64,000 nucleotides of DNA, from assembly GCF_014467075.1 (NCBI RefSeq), contig NZ_AP023027.1:271001-335000 (forward strand). Direction: 5' to 3'. Position numbers and translations under genes: made by a program. The DNA comes from Anaerostipes caccae L1-92. GTDB taxonomy: Bacteria; Bacillota; Clostridia; Lachnospirales; Lachnospiraceae. Under the pieces are notes generated by a model. It was not told the origin of the DNA. It worked only from the letters and a program-made list of their open reading frames with translations, and did not search any database. This document shows positions 163 to 25,483 of the stretch, in pieces. Each line of letters opens with the position of its first letter. Within the stretch, counting starts at the first letter, position 1.

Positions 163-2082
163 ATGAAAATAATTAACTTAGGCATTCTGGCTCACGTTGA
201 CGCAGGAAAGACAACATTAACGGAAAGTTTATTGTATACCAGTGGTGCAATTGCAGAACTAGGGAGCGTAGATGAAGGCACAACAAGGACAGATACAATG
301 AATTTGGAGCGTCAAAGGGGAATCACTATCCAGACAGCAGTGACATCTTTTCAGTGGGAGGATGTAAAAGTCAACATTATAGATACGCCAGGCCATATGG
401 ATTTTTTGGCGGAAGTATACCGTTCTTTATCCGTATTAGACGGAGCAGTATTATTAGTTTCTGCAAAGGATGGCATACAGGCACAGACCCGTATACTGTT
501 TCATGCACTACAGACAATGAAGATTCCGACAATTTTTTTCATCAATAAAATTGACCAAGAGGGGATTGATTTGCCAATGGTATATCGAGAAATGAAAGCA
601 AAGCTTTCTTCGGAAATTATAGTGAAGCAAAAGGTTGGGCAGCATCCCCATATAAATGTAACGGACAATGACGATATGGAACAGTGGGATGCGGTAATTA
701 TGGGAAACGATGAACTATTAGAGAAATATATGTCAGGGAAACCGTTTAAAATGTCAGAACTGGAACAGGAAGAAAACAGGAGATTCCAAAACGGAACGTT
801 ATTTCCCGTTTATCACGGAAGCGCTAAAAACAATCTGGGGATTCGGCAGCTTATAGAAGTGATTGCCAGTAAATTTTATTCATCAACGCCTGAAGGTCAA
901 TCTGAACTATGCGGGCAGGTTTTTAAGATTGAATATTCAGAGAAAAGGCGGCGTTTTGTTTATGTGCGTATATATAGCGGAACATTGCATTTGAGGGATG
1001 TTATTAGAATATCTGAAAAAGAGAAAATAAAAATCACAGAGATGTGTGTTCCGACAAACGGTGAATTATATTCATCCGATACAGCCTGCTCTGGTGATAT
1101 TGTAATTTTACCAAATGATGTTTTGCAGCTAAACAGTATTTTGGGGAACGGAATACTGTTGCCGCAGAGAAAATTTATTGAAAATCCTCTCCCTATGCTC
1201 CAAACAACGATTGCAGTAAAGAAATCTGAACAGCGGGAAATATTGCTTGGGGCACTTACAGAAATTTCAGATGGCGACCCTCTTTTAAAATATTATGTGG
1301 ATACTACAACGCATGAGATTATACTTTCTTTTTTGGGGAAAGTGCAGATGGAAGTCATTTGTGCCATCCTTGAGGAAAAATATCATGTGGAGGCAGAAAT
1401 AAAAGAGCCTACTGTTATATATATGGAAAGACCGCTTAGAAAAGCAGAATATACCATCCACATAGAAGTCCCGCCAAATCCTTTCTGGGCTTCTGTCGGG
1501 TTGTCCATAGAGCCGCTCCCTATTGGAAGCGGAGTGCAGTATGAAAGCAGAGTTTCACTTGGATATTTAAATCAATCGTTCCAAAATGCGGTTATGGAGG
1601 GGGTTCTTTATGGCTGCGAGCAGGGGCTGTATGGATGGAAAGTGACAGACTGTAAAATCTGTTTTGAATATGGATTGTATTATAGTCCTGTAAGTACCCC
1701 CGCAGACTTTCGGCTGCTTTCCCCTATCGTATTGGAGCAGGCTTTAAAAAAAGCAGGGACAGAACTATTAGAGCCATATCTCCACTTTGAAATTTATGCA
1801 CCGCAGGAATATCTCTCACGGGCGTATCATGATGCTCCAAGGTATTGTGCAGATATTGTAAGTACTCAGATAAAGAATGACGAGGTCATTCTGAAAGGAG
1901 AAATCCCTGCTAGATGTATTCAAGAATACAGGAACGATTTAACTTATTTCACAAATGGGCAGGGAGTCTGCTTGACAGAGTTAAAAGGATACCAGCCAGC
2001 TATTGGTAAATTTATTTGCCAACCCCGCCGCCCGAATAGCCGTATAGATAAGGTTCGGCATATGTTCCACAAGTTAGCTTAA
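163..2082 (+). CDS. tet(O): Tetracycline resistance ribosomal protection protein Tet(O)
   Basis: This is a translation GTPase that binds tetracycline-blocked ribosomes and releases the drug. It has 639 residues, the usual full length of Tet(O). The EF-G-like GTPase motifs are intact: AHVDAGKTT at residues 10-18, DTPGHMD from 74 and NKID at 128-131, followed by the EF-G-like domains II-V. The sequence matches remembered Tet(O) nearly throughout, so the symbol is given with confidence, though a small mosaic segment from Tet(32) or Tet(W) cannot be excluded by eye. The start is fixed by AGGAGG at 149-154. Expression is probably governed by the hairpin at 91-120. A small zinc protein gene and a strong terminator follow. 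Codon use is more AT-rich than in the genes after 2800, as expected for an acquired module. Confidence 0.96.
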
Positions 2083-2133: not shown

Positions 2134-2307
2134 ATGATGAAATGCGAATGGATATTGTGTCCTGTTTGTGGGAACAAAACCCGTAATAAAATTAGGAAGG
2201 ACACTGTTTTGGAGAATTATCCCCTTTATTGTCCAAAATGCAGACAAGAAAGATTGATTAAAGTTGACAACTTGAAGATAACTGTCATCAAAGAGCCAGA
2301 CGCTTAA
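2134..2307 (+). CDS. Cysteine-rich KTR domain protein
   Basis: A 57-residue protein with CPVC near residue 9 and CPKC near 33, a likely four-cysteine zinc ribbon, plus the KTR motif at residues 15-17. It follows tet(O) by 51 bases and ends just before a terminator, so it is probably co-transcribed. Small KTR proteins are commonly found behind tet(M)/tet(O)-type genes; no function is established. A paralog with the same spacing of motifs lies at 25016-25195 beside an rRNA methyltransferase gene in the other element. ATG at 2134 and 2137 are both possible starts. Confidence 0.8.
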   Translation: MMKCEWILCPVCGNKTRNKIRKDTVLENYPLYCPKCRQERLIKVDNLKITVIKEPDA

Positions 2308-18390: not shown

Positions 18391-20076
18391 ATGCGTAAAA
18401 ATCATATCTATCGTGCTTATGCTTATCTGCGCTTATCCGTGGAGGATGGCGATCAGATTGAAAGCGACAGCATTAAAAATCAAAGAGTCATAGTACAGCG
18501 TTATTGTGGCGGACAACAGGAAATCCAAATCATCGGTGAAGCAGTCGATGATGGGTATACTGGTACAAACTTCAATCGCCCCGGTTTCAAGAAAATCCTG
18601 AATCTGATTAAAAGTGGGGAGATTGACTGTATTATCGTAAAAGATCTGAGTCGTTTGGGCAGAGATTTTACGGAAGTATTGCGGTATGTACAGCGTAGAT
18701 TCCCGGAGTGGGGCGTCCGTTTTATTGCGATTGATGATAACTATGACAGTGAAGCCGAATCCTGCAAAGAGGATTTTCTAACATTACCCATTAAAAGTCT
18801 GTTAAATGAAAGCTATCCGGCAAATACAAGTATCAGTATCCGAAATACATTAAAGGCTATGCGTGAGCAGGGACTTTTTGTCGGGGCATACGCGTATTAT
18901 GGCTATCAAAAAGATCCAAATGATCATCACAGGTTGATTCTTGACCCTATCGCTTCGGAGGTGGTGCGGGATATCTTTCGCTGGAAACTCTGTGGTTTAA
19001 GTCAGGATGCCATCGCAACACGGCTTGACAGCCTTGGTATTTTGCCGCCGGCAGACTATAAAGTATCACAGGGGGTCCGGTACAGGACAACATTTAAAAA
19101 ATATGAACGTAGCCATTGGACTGCCGTAGCTGTAGGAAGAATTCTTAATAATACCGCTTACCTGGGAATACTGATACAAGGAAAAACCACTACTCCGAAC
19201 TTTAAAGTAAAGAAAATAATCTACAAAAGCGAAGAGGAGTGGGCTGTCGTAGAGGGGGCAATGCCTCCCCTTGTGAGCTGGATTGATTTTATGATTGTCA
19301 ATCACTTGTTAGAGCATGATACGCGGACAGCGCCTGGTCAGGAAACCGTATATCTTTTTTCTGGGCTACTGGAATGTATAGACTGCCATCAATCACTTGT
19401 ACGCAAATCCACGAAAGCAGGTGGAAAGGAATATGGATATTATGTGTGCTCTACCAACAGGGAGAATAGCAGGACATGTTCGCCTCACAGGGTTTCAGAA
19501 TCAAAGTTGAAAAAAAACATTCTTCTGCTGATACAATACCATATTTCTGTTCTTACTGATTTAAAATCAATCTTGTCATATGTTGATACAATACCATTTT
19601 CGGACCGCAGGGTACAGAAGGAAAGCTCTCGGATGGAAATGTTAAAAAAGGATTACCAGAGGAATATGAAATTAGCTGCCTCATTATACGGTGACTATCA
19701 GGACGAGCTGCTGACAAGAGAGGAATACCTTCAGCTGAAAAAACAGTATTCAAGCCGTTGTACTGAACTGGAAAAGCTGATTGAGCAGCAAAAGGTAGAA
19801 AATGATAATATATTTCGGAATATCTGTGGTAAGAATGCATGGATTGATCATTTTTTGCAATTCGGTCAGGTAAAGGAACTTGACCGGAGGCTGGTAGTTA
19901 GTTGTATAAAGAGTATTCAAGTCTCCGAAAAGGGAAATCTGGAAATTACGTTCTGGTTTAAAGATGAATTTAGAAAGGTCATAGCAAAAATCAGACAGAT
20001 TTGTACAGAATTGCCTAACCAGAAAATGGAAACATTCCTGGAAAGCTTAGGGGAAGGCGGTGTCATGTGTGGCTAG
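18391..20076 (+). CDS. Large serine recombinase A of the outer element
   Basis: A 561-residue integrase. The resolvase domain contains YAYLRLS with catalytic Ser16 and DDGYTGTNFNRPGF, followed by a recombinase domain with GYQKDPNDHHRLILDP, a zinc ribbon (CIDCHQSL and YYVCSTN) and a coiled coil. It overlaps the next recombinase gene by a few bases, so three to four recombinases were expressed together before the inner element split the cluster. TAGGAG precedes ATG 18391. The 182 bases before it contain no gene. Confidence 0.9.
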   Translation: MRKNHIYRAYAYLRLSVEDGDQIESDSIKNQRVIVQRYCGGQQEIQIIGEAVDDGYTGTNFNRPGFKKILNLIKSGEIDCIIVKDLSRLGRDFTEVLRYVQRRFPEWGVRFIAIDDNYDSEAESCKEDFLTLPIKSLLNESYPANTSISIRNTLKAMREQGLFVGAYAYYGYQKDPNDHHRLILDPIASEVVRDIFRWKLCGLSQDAIATRLDSLGILPPADYKVSQGVRYRTTFKKYERSHWTAVAVGRILNNTAYLGILIQGKTTTPNFKVKKIIYKSEEEWAVVEGAMPPLVSWIDFMIVNHLLEHDTRTAPGQETVYLFSGLLECIDCHQSLVRKSTKAGGKEYGYYVCSTNRENSRTCSPHRVSESKLKKNILLLIQYHISVLTDLKSILSYVDTIPFSDRRVQKESSRMEMLKKDYQRNMKLAASLYGDYQDELLTREEYLQLKKQYSSRCTELEKLIEQQKVENDNIFRNICGKNAWIDHFLQFGQVKELDRRLVVSCIKSIQVSEKGNLEITFWFKDEFRKVIAKIRQICTELPNQKMETFLESLGEGGVMCG

Positions 20077-20359: not shown

Positions 20360-22081
<1,722 letters not shown>

Positions 22082-22304: not shown

Positions 22305-22781
22305 AGAAAATCCCCCTTTCTTTCGCAAACATATAATATAGTCTATGAATAGCAGCAAGTCCACTATTCAATAAAACAAAGGCTTTAATCGGACGGTTAT
22401 TAGCATAACCTCATGGGAATTTCACCCCGGCATGGTTCTCATGCCGCCCTACCCATTGCCTGCGACGCTCTTAACGCTCGGACTGTGGCTGTAAGGAAGT
22501 ATCATTGTATATTCTGCGTGTCGTCGCCCGCAAGCCGCTACACTTGCTTTCCGGCGCGGTGTTGGTCGCTCGGCTGTCCGGGCGGGGATAACCTCACCCG
22601 GATAGCGTCATGGCGCACCCGCCGTATGGCTCGGCGCAAAAGGAACGTATCCGATTTGCCCTATGCTGCGCCGCCGTTATCTTGCGCCGCTTTCTTTGTC
22701 AAGGTTCAGAATGGCTTTGCTGCCGCGTCAGCAGCGGAACGGAAAAGGGGGAGAGAGAAAGCGTCCCGCCGCCGCTGCGGT
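22305..22781. other. GC-rich gene-free stretch in the inner element
   Basis: No frame here has a ribosome binding site and family resemblance. The sequence contains several short inverted repeats (for example CATGGTTCTCATG near 22431 and TCCGGGCGG...CCCGGA near 22577-22603) and lies between the HTH gene and the TnpW-like gene, so a structured leader or small RNA is possible. Confidence 0.4.
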
Positions 22782-25015: not shown

Positions 25016-25195
25016 TTAAAAAGTTTGTTTTTCAGAGTTTTTGATTATGATTTCTAGTTTTTCAACATCAACGATATGCGTTAATTTACATTTAGGGCAG
25101 AAAAGAGGAAAATTTCTTAATACCGTATTATAAAATACTTGAACCCTCGTCTTTCCGTTACAAATTGGACATTTTATCCAATATTTTTCAAGCAT
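25016..25195 (-). CDS. Cysteine-rich KTR domain protein, second copy
   Basis: A 59-residue protein; ATG 25195 is chosen because AAAAGGAG (25210-25203) lies 7 bases upstream. CPIC and CPKC pairs form a zinc ribbon and KTR follows the first pair, as in the protein after tet(O). It precedes the methyltransferase gene by 23 bases, whereas the tet(O) copy follows its resistance gene. The repeated association of KTR proteins with ribosome-directed resistance modules is notable, but their function is unknown. Confidence 0.8.
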   Translation of the reverse strand: MLEKYWIKCPICNGKTRVQVFYNTVLRNFPLFCPKCKLTHIVDVEKLEIIIKNSEKQTF

Positions 25196-25218
25196 AATAT
25201 TTCTCCTTTTGCGCAAAA

Positions 25219-25258
25219 AAATGCAGGTCAATTCTCAACATGAGCATTGACCTGCATT
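25219..25258 (-). terminator. Promoter-distal attenuator hairpin before the KTR-methyltransferase operon
   Basis: On the minus strand AATGCAGGTCAAT pairs with ATTGACCTGCATT and is followed by TTTTT, ending only some 20 bases before the KTR start codon. Located between promoter and first gene, it must be bypassed for expression. Confidence 0.8.
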
Positions 25259-25355
25259 TATACATATAATACTACAACAAAATTAAGGCATAGTTTTTAT
25301 ACTATGTCTATACGTCGTTAGTTTTGTTGTATAGCATACGCAAAATAAGCATGAC

Positions 25356-25379
25356 AAAAAAGCCCATATTGAAAATGGG
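25356..25379 (-). terminator. Promoter-proximal attenuator hairpin
   Basis: On the minus strand CCCAT pairs with ATGGG around TTTCAAT and is followed by CTTTTTT. It lies within the loop of a larger possible stem formed by the flanking GCATGCGTA (25419-25411) and TGCGTATGC (25343-25335) segments. Confidence 0.6.
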
Positions 25380-25403
25380 AAAAATCTTTTTTGATTTCAA
25401 TGC

Positions 25404-25430
25404 TTATCGAATACGCATGCTATGTAACAT
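25404..25430 (-). CDS. Putative leader peptide of the methyltransferase operon
   Basis: ATG 25430 follows AAAAGGGGGGG by 7 bases and encodes MLHSMRIR, ending at TAA 25404. An earlier in-frame ATG at 25436 would give MFMLHSMRIR but lies too close to the G-run. The coding segment overlaps one arm of the large stem that encloses the first terminator, so a ribosome stalled here could change the folding. Confidence 0.55.
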   Translation of the reverse strand: MLHSMRIR

Positions 25431-25455
25431 AAACATTCCCCCCCTTTTATATAAT

Positions 25456-25483
25456 ATTATATACAAAAGCAGCTTGTTGTCAA
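25456..25483 (-). promoter_or_regulatory. Promoter of the KTR-methyltransferase operon
   Basis: On the minus strand TTGACA (25483-25478), a 16-base spacer and TATAAT (25461-25456). The start of transcription would be about 15-20 bases before the leader peptide. Confidence 0.85.

Follow-up and report, generated by a model that had tools for sequence, protein, structure and literature searches.

A predicted macrolide-sensing attenuator ahead of a mobile KTR and MrmA-like methyltransferase operon in Anaerostipes caccae

In a window of 64,000 nucleotides from Anaerostipes caccae L1-92 (the whole stretch of DNA analyzed here; contig NZ_AP023027.1, positions 271,001 to 335,000), a compact RNA leader precedes a mobile operon coding for a small cysteine-rich KTR protein and a methyltransferase of the RlmN/Cfr superfamily. 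We consider it likely that this leader attenuates transcription in response to macrolides, in the manner of the mef(E)/ermK leaders, and thereby controls the KTR-mrmA operon. Judged by its sequence, it very probably senses antibiotics of the erythromycin type via a stalled ribosome, an arrangement that suggests that the methyltransferase is produced only in the presence of the drug. The leader displays the anatomy of such a switch, belongs to an established RNA family, encodes a peptide matching known stalling peptides and retains both of its alternative helices across its relatives, and the enzyme falls in a clade separate from both RlmN and Cfr.

Organization of the locus and its mobile setting

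The initial annotation of this DNA had placed on the minus strand a consensus promoter, a ribosome binding site with a short ORF (MLHSMRIR), a long stem pairing the ORF with a later segment and enclosing a terminator, and a second terminator just before the first gene, and each of these elements was recovered (Table 1). The promoter ranks first among the 17 promoter-like sites within 8 kb, shuffled sequences holding a mean of 10.5 such sites of any listed quality. Downstream of it lie a G-rich ribosome binding site, AAAAGGGGGGG, and the leader ORF (codons ATG TTA CAT AGC ATG CGT ATT CGA TAA). The leader is about 0.23 kb long and is closed by T2 ahead of the KTR gene, all of which is taken in by the span first delineated (25016-25483).

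Table 1. Features of the leader and operon, in window coordinates
Feature	Position	Strand	Evidence or remark
Sigma-70 type promoter TTGACA-16-TATAAT	25456..25483	minus	12/12 consensus matches
Leader ORF MLHSMRIR*	25404..25430	minus	ErmDL/Mef(E)L-type putative stalling peptide, 8 codons, Arg6-Ile7-Arg8
RF02862 (sRNA_1300) match	25214..25425	minus	50.1 bits, gathering score 48.8
Stem P1 (R1/R2), leader ORF x post-T1 stretch	25331..25423	minus	MFE fold, pair counts
T1, first terminator-like hairpin, then T-run	25363..25379	minus	weak; candidate antiterminator of T2
T2, strong terminator hairpin, then T-run	25222..25257	minus	-21.0 kcal/mol
Cysteine-rich KTR gene, 59 aa (PF14205)	25016..25195	minus	74.6 bits, cut-off 25.5
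MrmA-like methyltransferase, RlmN/Cfr radical SAM superfamily, 329 aa	24003..24992	minus	

The 255-nt leader folds at -78 kcal/mol as against -49.6 +/- 4.7 kcal/mol for 200 shuffles (z -6.1), and P1 encloses T1 in its minimum free-energy fold. A further stem that had been proposed, TACAACAAAA/TTTTGTTGTA, does exist, but mainly as part of an alternative fold that appears once the ORF is masked. Two elements picked out by eye were discarded: a second short ORF inside T2 (MQVNAHVEN), which is without a ribosome binding site, and a helix between AGCAUUGA, downstream of the leader stop, and UCAAUGCU of T2, since a ribosome halted at codon 7 would occlude it.

The surroundings are those of a mobile element, with serine recombinase, TnpW, sigma-like and relaxase genes recognized by Pfam, and a close copy in Monoglobus has annotated mobC and relaxase genes. 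Elsewhere in the window, two large serine recombinases adjoin each other convergently (18391-20076, plus strand; 20360-22063, minus strand) and likely mark the junction of two elements, and a pemK RNA (RF02913, 62.9 bits; 22411-22508, minus strand) lies between the TnpW and HTH genes. A ribosomal protection gene of the TetM/W/O/S family (NF033148, 1307.8 bits; 163-2082, plus strand) has a second KTR gene directly 3' of it (2134-2307, plus strand); with the latter counted, a tet gene of this type occurs within about 1.5 kb in 11 of 30 KTR loci.

The leader peptide

The encoded peptide differs at two positions from the ErmD leader peptide ErmDL (MTHSMRLR), keeping His3, Ser4, Met5 and Arg6-X-Arg8, and it retains Ser4, Met5 and R6-X-R8 in comparison with the Mef(E) leader peptide Mef(E)L (MTASMRLR). 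ErmDL is reported to stall under erythromycin or telithromycin when Leu7 occupies the P site and Arg8 the A site, Ser4 and Met5 being of importance for erythromycin and R-X-R for telithromycin (PMC8298421). Given this resemblance, with Arg-X-Arg in the same positions, the expected inducers are 14- and 15-membered macrolides and ketolides, not lincosamides, phenicols or oxazolidinones; of the drugs that the initial annotation had listed, the macrolides are thereby kept, and the other three classes, together with the pleuromutilins, would not be the main inducers. Neither MLHSMRIR nor HSMRIR was found in the literature searched.

On both strands of the window, MLHSMRIR is the only site to pass a filter for an ATG start, 6-12 codons, a ribosome-binding motif and an end in [KR]X[KR] (hereafter +X+) or one residue later, an in-frame ATG two codons upstream of its start being counted as the same site. 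Short ORFs ending in +X+, with a ribosome binding site, lie upstream at 39 of the 50 loci examined from the clade of MrmA-like genes described below, which are not independent since many copies are identical (one additional locus was too short). The corresponding counts are 1 of 18 upstream of housekeeping RlmN genes (those of the carriers and the own one), and 0 of 22 and 1 of 76 upstream of other RlmN gene sets. The conservation of the leader ORF, to which weight had been given from the start, is also evident at the codon level, where the peptide is maintained through synonymous changes: by hand count, the differences between the window's type and B, B and L102, and L102 and L182 comprise six synonymous changes, among them AGC to TCT at Ser4, and two residue-changing ones, with L102 and L182 carrying an additional Lys codon and L101 excluded from the count for its unrelated peptide (MFSYNYI). 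The RNA is retained in the absence of +X+ in L101, L182 (MLHSIRIWK), L249, L246 and L244; either these leaders respond to a different inducer, or arrest by erythromycin is sufficient without +X+.

Conservation of the alternative helices

We compared the pairings across alignment A2, which contains nine mrmA-type and five mef-type leaders, all 14 of them distinct. Pairing of the attenuator is preserved in 81.6% of the alignment cells as against 38-51% in slid versions, and double-change cells number 47 versus 23 in shuffles. A helix search further brought up an unexpected alternative helix between T1 and the 5' half of T2, which is kept in 86.4% of the cells versus 26-44% in slid versions, with 13 double-change cells versus 6 in shuffles. 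Counted by pairs, double changes do not rise above the shuffles in this alignment (attenuator, 14 versus 12.7; T1:T2, 4 versus 3.5), and further pair types show no excess over shuffles for either structure. Since, in addition, the window's sequence served to draw both structures, which are thereby favored over their slid versions, the covariation, which had been put forward as a check, lends support that falls short of overwhelming. In 13 of the 14 leaders, no more than 9 of 500 shuffles reach a T1:T2 duplex as good; in the remaining one, L097, this duplex has been lost via an inverted T2 loop, and 426 of 500 shuffles are equally good.

Several loci depart from this arrangement. An insertion rich in hairpins occupies T2 in L185. 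Natural deletions have removed T2 before mrmA in L160 and before a mef-like gene in L245, one locus each among those read, and, if the model is true, such alleles would escape drug regulation. Among the members of the clade, L012, L103, L176, L177, L178, L186 and L188 have no leader of the RF02862-like type directly upstream, and the leader of L007 (MIINFMRIR) gives no match to the RNA model based on A2. The latter precedes an MrmA-like gene of the P. bifermentans plasmid pHD0315_2-5, which also bears an MFS transporter, HflX and, farther away, a tetB(P)-type gene. In L183, a contig from a viral collection that is possibly a chimeric assembly, mrmA stands beside a truncated frame that by eye resembles a class A beta-lactamase.

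Folding of the growing leader

To imitate a stalled ribosome, growing RNAs were folded with the leader ORF masked, and the pairings of T2 were counted with the 74 nt that follow the leader stop and contain T1 plus dIR1 and part of R2. In the masked RNA of the window, T2 pairs with this stretch from about 14 nt of T2 until about 30 nt. Transient pairing of this kind also occurs in unmasked RNA of the window (24-30 nt of T2), L010 (22-30), L102 (18-22) and L182 (20-34), though not of L003, so that masking is not the sole condition allowing it; L101 shows it only under masks reaching at least 8 nt past the stop. In RNAs ending at the U-tract, T2 is closed, masked or not, in the window's leader, L010, L162, L003, L097, L099 and L101, while masking abolishes it in L182, and it is lost in L102 with masks 3-9 nt past the stop and in the four parsed mef leaders under masks 6-9 nt past the stop (the T2 of the mef leader L210 was not parsed and is left out of this result). 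In longer RNAs, L101 does switch, its T2 probability falling from 0.99 unmasked to 0.07-0.31 with masks extending no more than 9 nt past the stop, and the window's group shows no switch at T2; L102, L182 and mef have imperfect T2 stems that this measure does not fit, and were judged by the U-tract folding only.

In these models, then, the switch is a thermodynamic one in the mef leaders and some relatives. No simple switch of this equilibrium kind was found at T2 in the window's own leader, where T2 survives masking of the ORF; since T2 wins at equilibrium, this type of leader could act as a kinetic switch only, and the undoing of T2 is the weakest step of the model. The ribosome-mediated attenuation that the initial annotation had proposed is accordingly upheld by the RNA family, the ErmDL/Mef(E)L-type peptide and the conserved alternative helices, but not by any opening of T2 at equilibrium in the window. 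The T2 hairpins of groups A and B, at -19 to -23.6 kcal/mol, survive masking at equilibrium, which would suit a leader that is a mere relic on a mobile module, where T2 simply terminates transcription and the operon depends on leak or read-through for any expression; the loss of the leader in some copies (L161 and L183) would suit it too. We regard this as improbable, because the peptide is maintained through synonymous changes and the T1:T2 complementarity is retained in most of the leaders examined. Of the two, regulated attenuation is the reading we retain.

The methyltransferase and its carriers

The description of the enzyme as RlmN/Cfr-like holds at the level of the superfamily, but it is neither an RlmN nor a Cfr. 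It reaches the cut-off of none of the NCBIfam models listed for the superfamily, with 270.3 bits versus 290 for the housekeeping RlmN model TIGR00048 and 191-198 bits versus cut-offs of 468-550 for the Cfr models (NF000424, 197.5 of 530; TIGR04432, 191.1 of 550). The window's genome has a separate, ordinary RlmN (422.9 bits); likewise, all 17 carrier genomes tested have their own RlmN over the cut-off (346-436 bits, the match in G536 containing one stop), the accessory copies in these genomes lying under it at 258-279 bits. In a midpoint-rooted tree of 32 proteins, which include ten housekeeping RlmN as well as Cfr(A), (C) and (D) (a motif filter had dropped 11 of 43 candidates, among them eight housekeeping RlmN), the window enzyme sits in a third clade of 12 rows with support 100/99, apart from housekeeping RlmN and Cfr. 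The CX3CX2C cluster and two further cysteines are conserved in all 32 rows, the latter aligning with what we take to be the catalytic pair of RlmN. Identity to the window enzyme in the class sample steps down from 65% within the clade to at most 43% in ordinary RlmN. A more distant RlmN-like gene (L189, 41-47% identity) on the Rhodobacter xanthinilyticus plasmid pEJ03, near floR and tet(G), forms the sister row of the clade. With the window's genome counted in each case, carriers make up 8 of 391 genomes in the class (by the identity gap), 24 of 397 in the family (E <= 1e-80) and 3 of 398 in the phylum (E <= 1e-75).

These features fit the published description of MrmA (WP_002584956.1), an RlmN-type methyltransferase reported in 2025 on Tn6105, and the window gene may thus be an mrmA. 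In E. coli delta-tolC, MrmA is reported to raise the erythromycin MIC from 2 to 512-1024 and that of streptogramin B modestly, giving a spectrum of 14-membered macrolides and streptogramin B, with the MICs of tylosin, clindamycin, tiamulin, linezolid and chloramphenicol unchanged; its lineage is described as separate from RlmN and Cfr, its hosts retaining their own rlmN (PMC11983580).

These data also bear on the possibility that the leader senses drugs of the peptidyl-transferase center (lincosamides, phenicols, pleuromutilins and oxazolidinones) and that the enzyme is a Cfr-like C8 methylase of A2503. Membership of the superfamily, with the five conserved cysteines, and weak matches to the Cfr models are what speak for it. 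These matches, however, stop far short of the cut-offs given above, Cfr(A), (C) and (D) sit in a clade of their own at 29-32% identity to the window enzyme, the leader peptide is of the macrolide type, and four of the MICs reported as unchanged by MrmA are those of drugs from just these classes; we therefore hold it to be very unlikely and favor a macrolide-directed, MrmA-like enzyme.

The RNA family and its other members

The match of the leader to RF02862, found with Infernal, spans model positions 1-231. This family originates from an Enterococcus faecium sRNA on a genomic island, seen as a discrete 230-nt transcript on Northern blots (PMC5593968). The consensus of the family itself codes for ..ASMRLR, followed by a stop, and the members labelled Enterococcus sRNA 1300 (L092, L093, L094, L210, L211, L212) encode MTASMRLR. 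Against plasmids, the consensus matched 18 records, 16 of them at a coverage of at least 80%. In the seven of these that were opened, five matches lie directly upstream of mef(A) and one precedes a fragment typed as mel/msr-type, all six being in sense orientation and covering at least 87% of the consensus; the seventh is a weak match (31% coverage) near aph(2'')-IVa. As mef(A)/msr-type genes follow the near-full matches, sRNA_1300 represents a mef/mel operon leader in these records, and the sRNA label of the family looks wrong, RF02862 being a macrolide attenuator leader of mef/msr(D). That the leader instead acts in trans as a small RNA in its own right, as the Rfam name and the discrete Northern transcript would have it, deserves hardly any credence, since a prematurely terminated attenuator yields just such a transcript and six near-full plasmid copies precede mef(A) or an msr-type fragment in sense orientation.

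Searches with the window leader gave no match in E. coli genomes. A covariance model built from A2 has matches in 45 of 395 family genomes; the comparison below covers nine leaders outside A2. The matches in L247, L251 and L252 (41.6 bits) represent the same leader as L246, and matches of 43.9 and 37.7 bits on the strand opposite a leader were rejected, as they overlap the nearly palindromic T2. Once 20 nt of T2 are out, pairing between the T1-holding stretch and T2 is seen in the masked, but not in the unmasked, RNA of all nine outside leaders. When T2 is complete, six of the nine (L237, L238, L239, L246, L248 and L249) form it without the mask and lose it under the mask, although in L248 it is only partly formed even before masking; masking reduces T2 in L244 and leaves it unchanged in L253, and in L250 T2 is not formed at full length even unmasked. 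The T1:T2 duplex is equalled by at most 7 of 500 shuffles in eight of the nine, L244 failing with 36 of 500.

The leaders of L237, L238 and L253 precede proteins above the Mef(A) cut-off, those of L249 (MWYGCMWNIRNY) and L246 (VLICVR) precede Mef-like pumps scoring under it, and the frames following those of L239, L244 and L250 resemble Mef-like pumps by eye; the leader of L248 (MGSIRIR) is without a clear target gene. In L246, the leader, the Mef-like pump and an MrmA-like gene follow one another in one direction and likely constitute an operon. Preceding as they do both Mef-type pumps and MrmA-like genes, the leaders of this family are tied to two kinds of macrolide-resistance genes.

Proposed mechanism and implications

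We posit that, without drug, the leader ORF would be read and the peptide released, P1 would form and lock T1 away, and T2 would then form, so that RNA polymerase halts ahead of the KTR gene. With erythromycin, by analogy with ErmDL, the ribosome would stall once codon 7 (Ile) occupies the P site and Arg8 the A site, covering the 5' arm of P1 and freeing T1. The freed T1 would pair with the 5' half of T2 as the latter leaves the polymerase, and T2 would be unable to close in time, allowing the operon to be read. The methyltransferase would then protect the ribosome, probably at a site other than that of Cfr.

As a more tentative extension, which we rate as somewhat short of an even chance, the same steps might apply to the whole leader family of mef and mrmA: a macrolide-stalled ribosome opens P1, the freed T1 acts as an antiterminator that captures the 5' half of T2 cotranscriptionally, and the cassette has moved between genes for efflux and for rRNA methylation, with the window's type having become purely kinetic. 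If the attenuator model is true, resistance of the MrmA type would be inducible and can hence escape detection in uninduced tests, the inducer spectrum would be readable from the leader peptide, the sRNA_1300 family of Rfam would be better read as a macrolide attenuator than as an sRNA, and both kinds of genes in Clostridia and Bacilli would have a single RNA cassette in common. The T1:T2 helix would offer a specific antitermination step for the mef leaders too.

Comparison with known systems

This type of switch is known, and its pairing with an MrmA-like gene seems unreported, by literature searches on the peptide and on MrmA (since 2023, with one relevant paper among the best 20 of 164 matches) and by the wording of the MrmA paper, in which "leader" and "attenuat" do not occur. 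MrmA and the window enzyme are alike in being mobile members of the RlmN superfamily, in belonging to a third lineage and in having hosts with their own rlmN; a KTR neighbor or a mode of regulation does not figure in the portions of text available from that report (PMC11983580). With Cfr, the window enzyme shares the radical SAM fold family and the character of a mobile resistance enzyme, from which its separate clade, low identity and scores far under the Cfr cut-offs set it apart.

The leader has the parts of a mef(E)/ermK-type attenuator, namely an 8-codon ORF with a ribosome binding site and an ErmDL-type +X+ peptide, and a stem pairing the ORF with downstream RNA, followed by an intrinsic terminator. 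To the ermD/ermK leader it is likened by its peptide, M-x-H-S-M-R-x-R at identical positions, and transcriptional attenuation with two terminators has been reported for ermK (PMC8298421, PMC4335068). Unlike ErmDL, the window peptide stops right after Arg8, and the cargo differs from that of ermD/ermK, as it contains no Erm A2058 methylase. A close parallel is mef(E)/mel, for which attenuation has already been published (PMC4335068). The published dIR1:dIR2 antiterminator of mef(E), present in mef and kept in L101, L102 and L182, was not found in the window's type, where it is not one of the six best helices of the window's leader or L003. T2 is stronger in the window, at -21.0 kcal/mol versus -9.7 to -16.9 kcal/mol in mef, and the cargo is a KTR protein and a methyltransferase rather than an efflux pump and an ABC-F protein. 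Both leaders encode a peptide of the same length and motif, and they share the R1/R2 stem on the ORF, a T1-like inner hairpin, R3/R4, T2 and the complementarity of T1 with T2.
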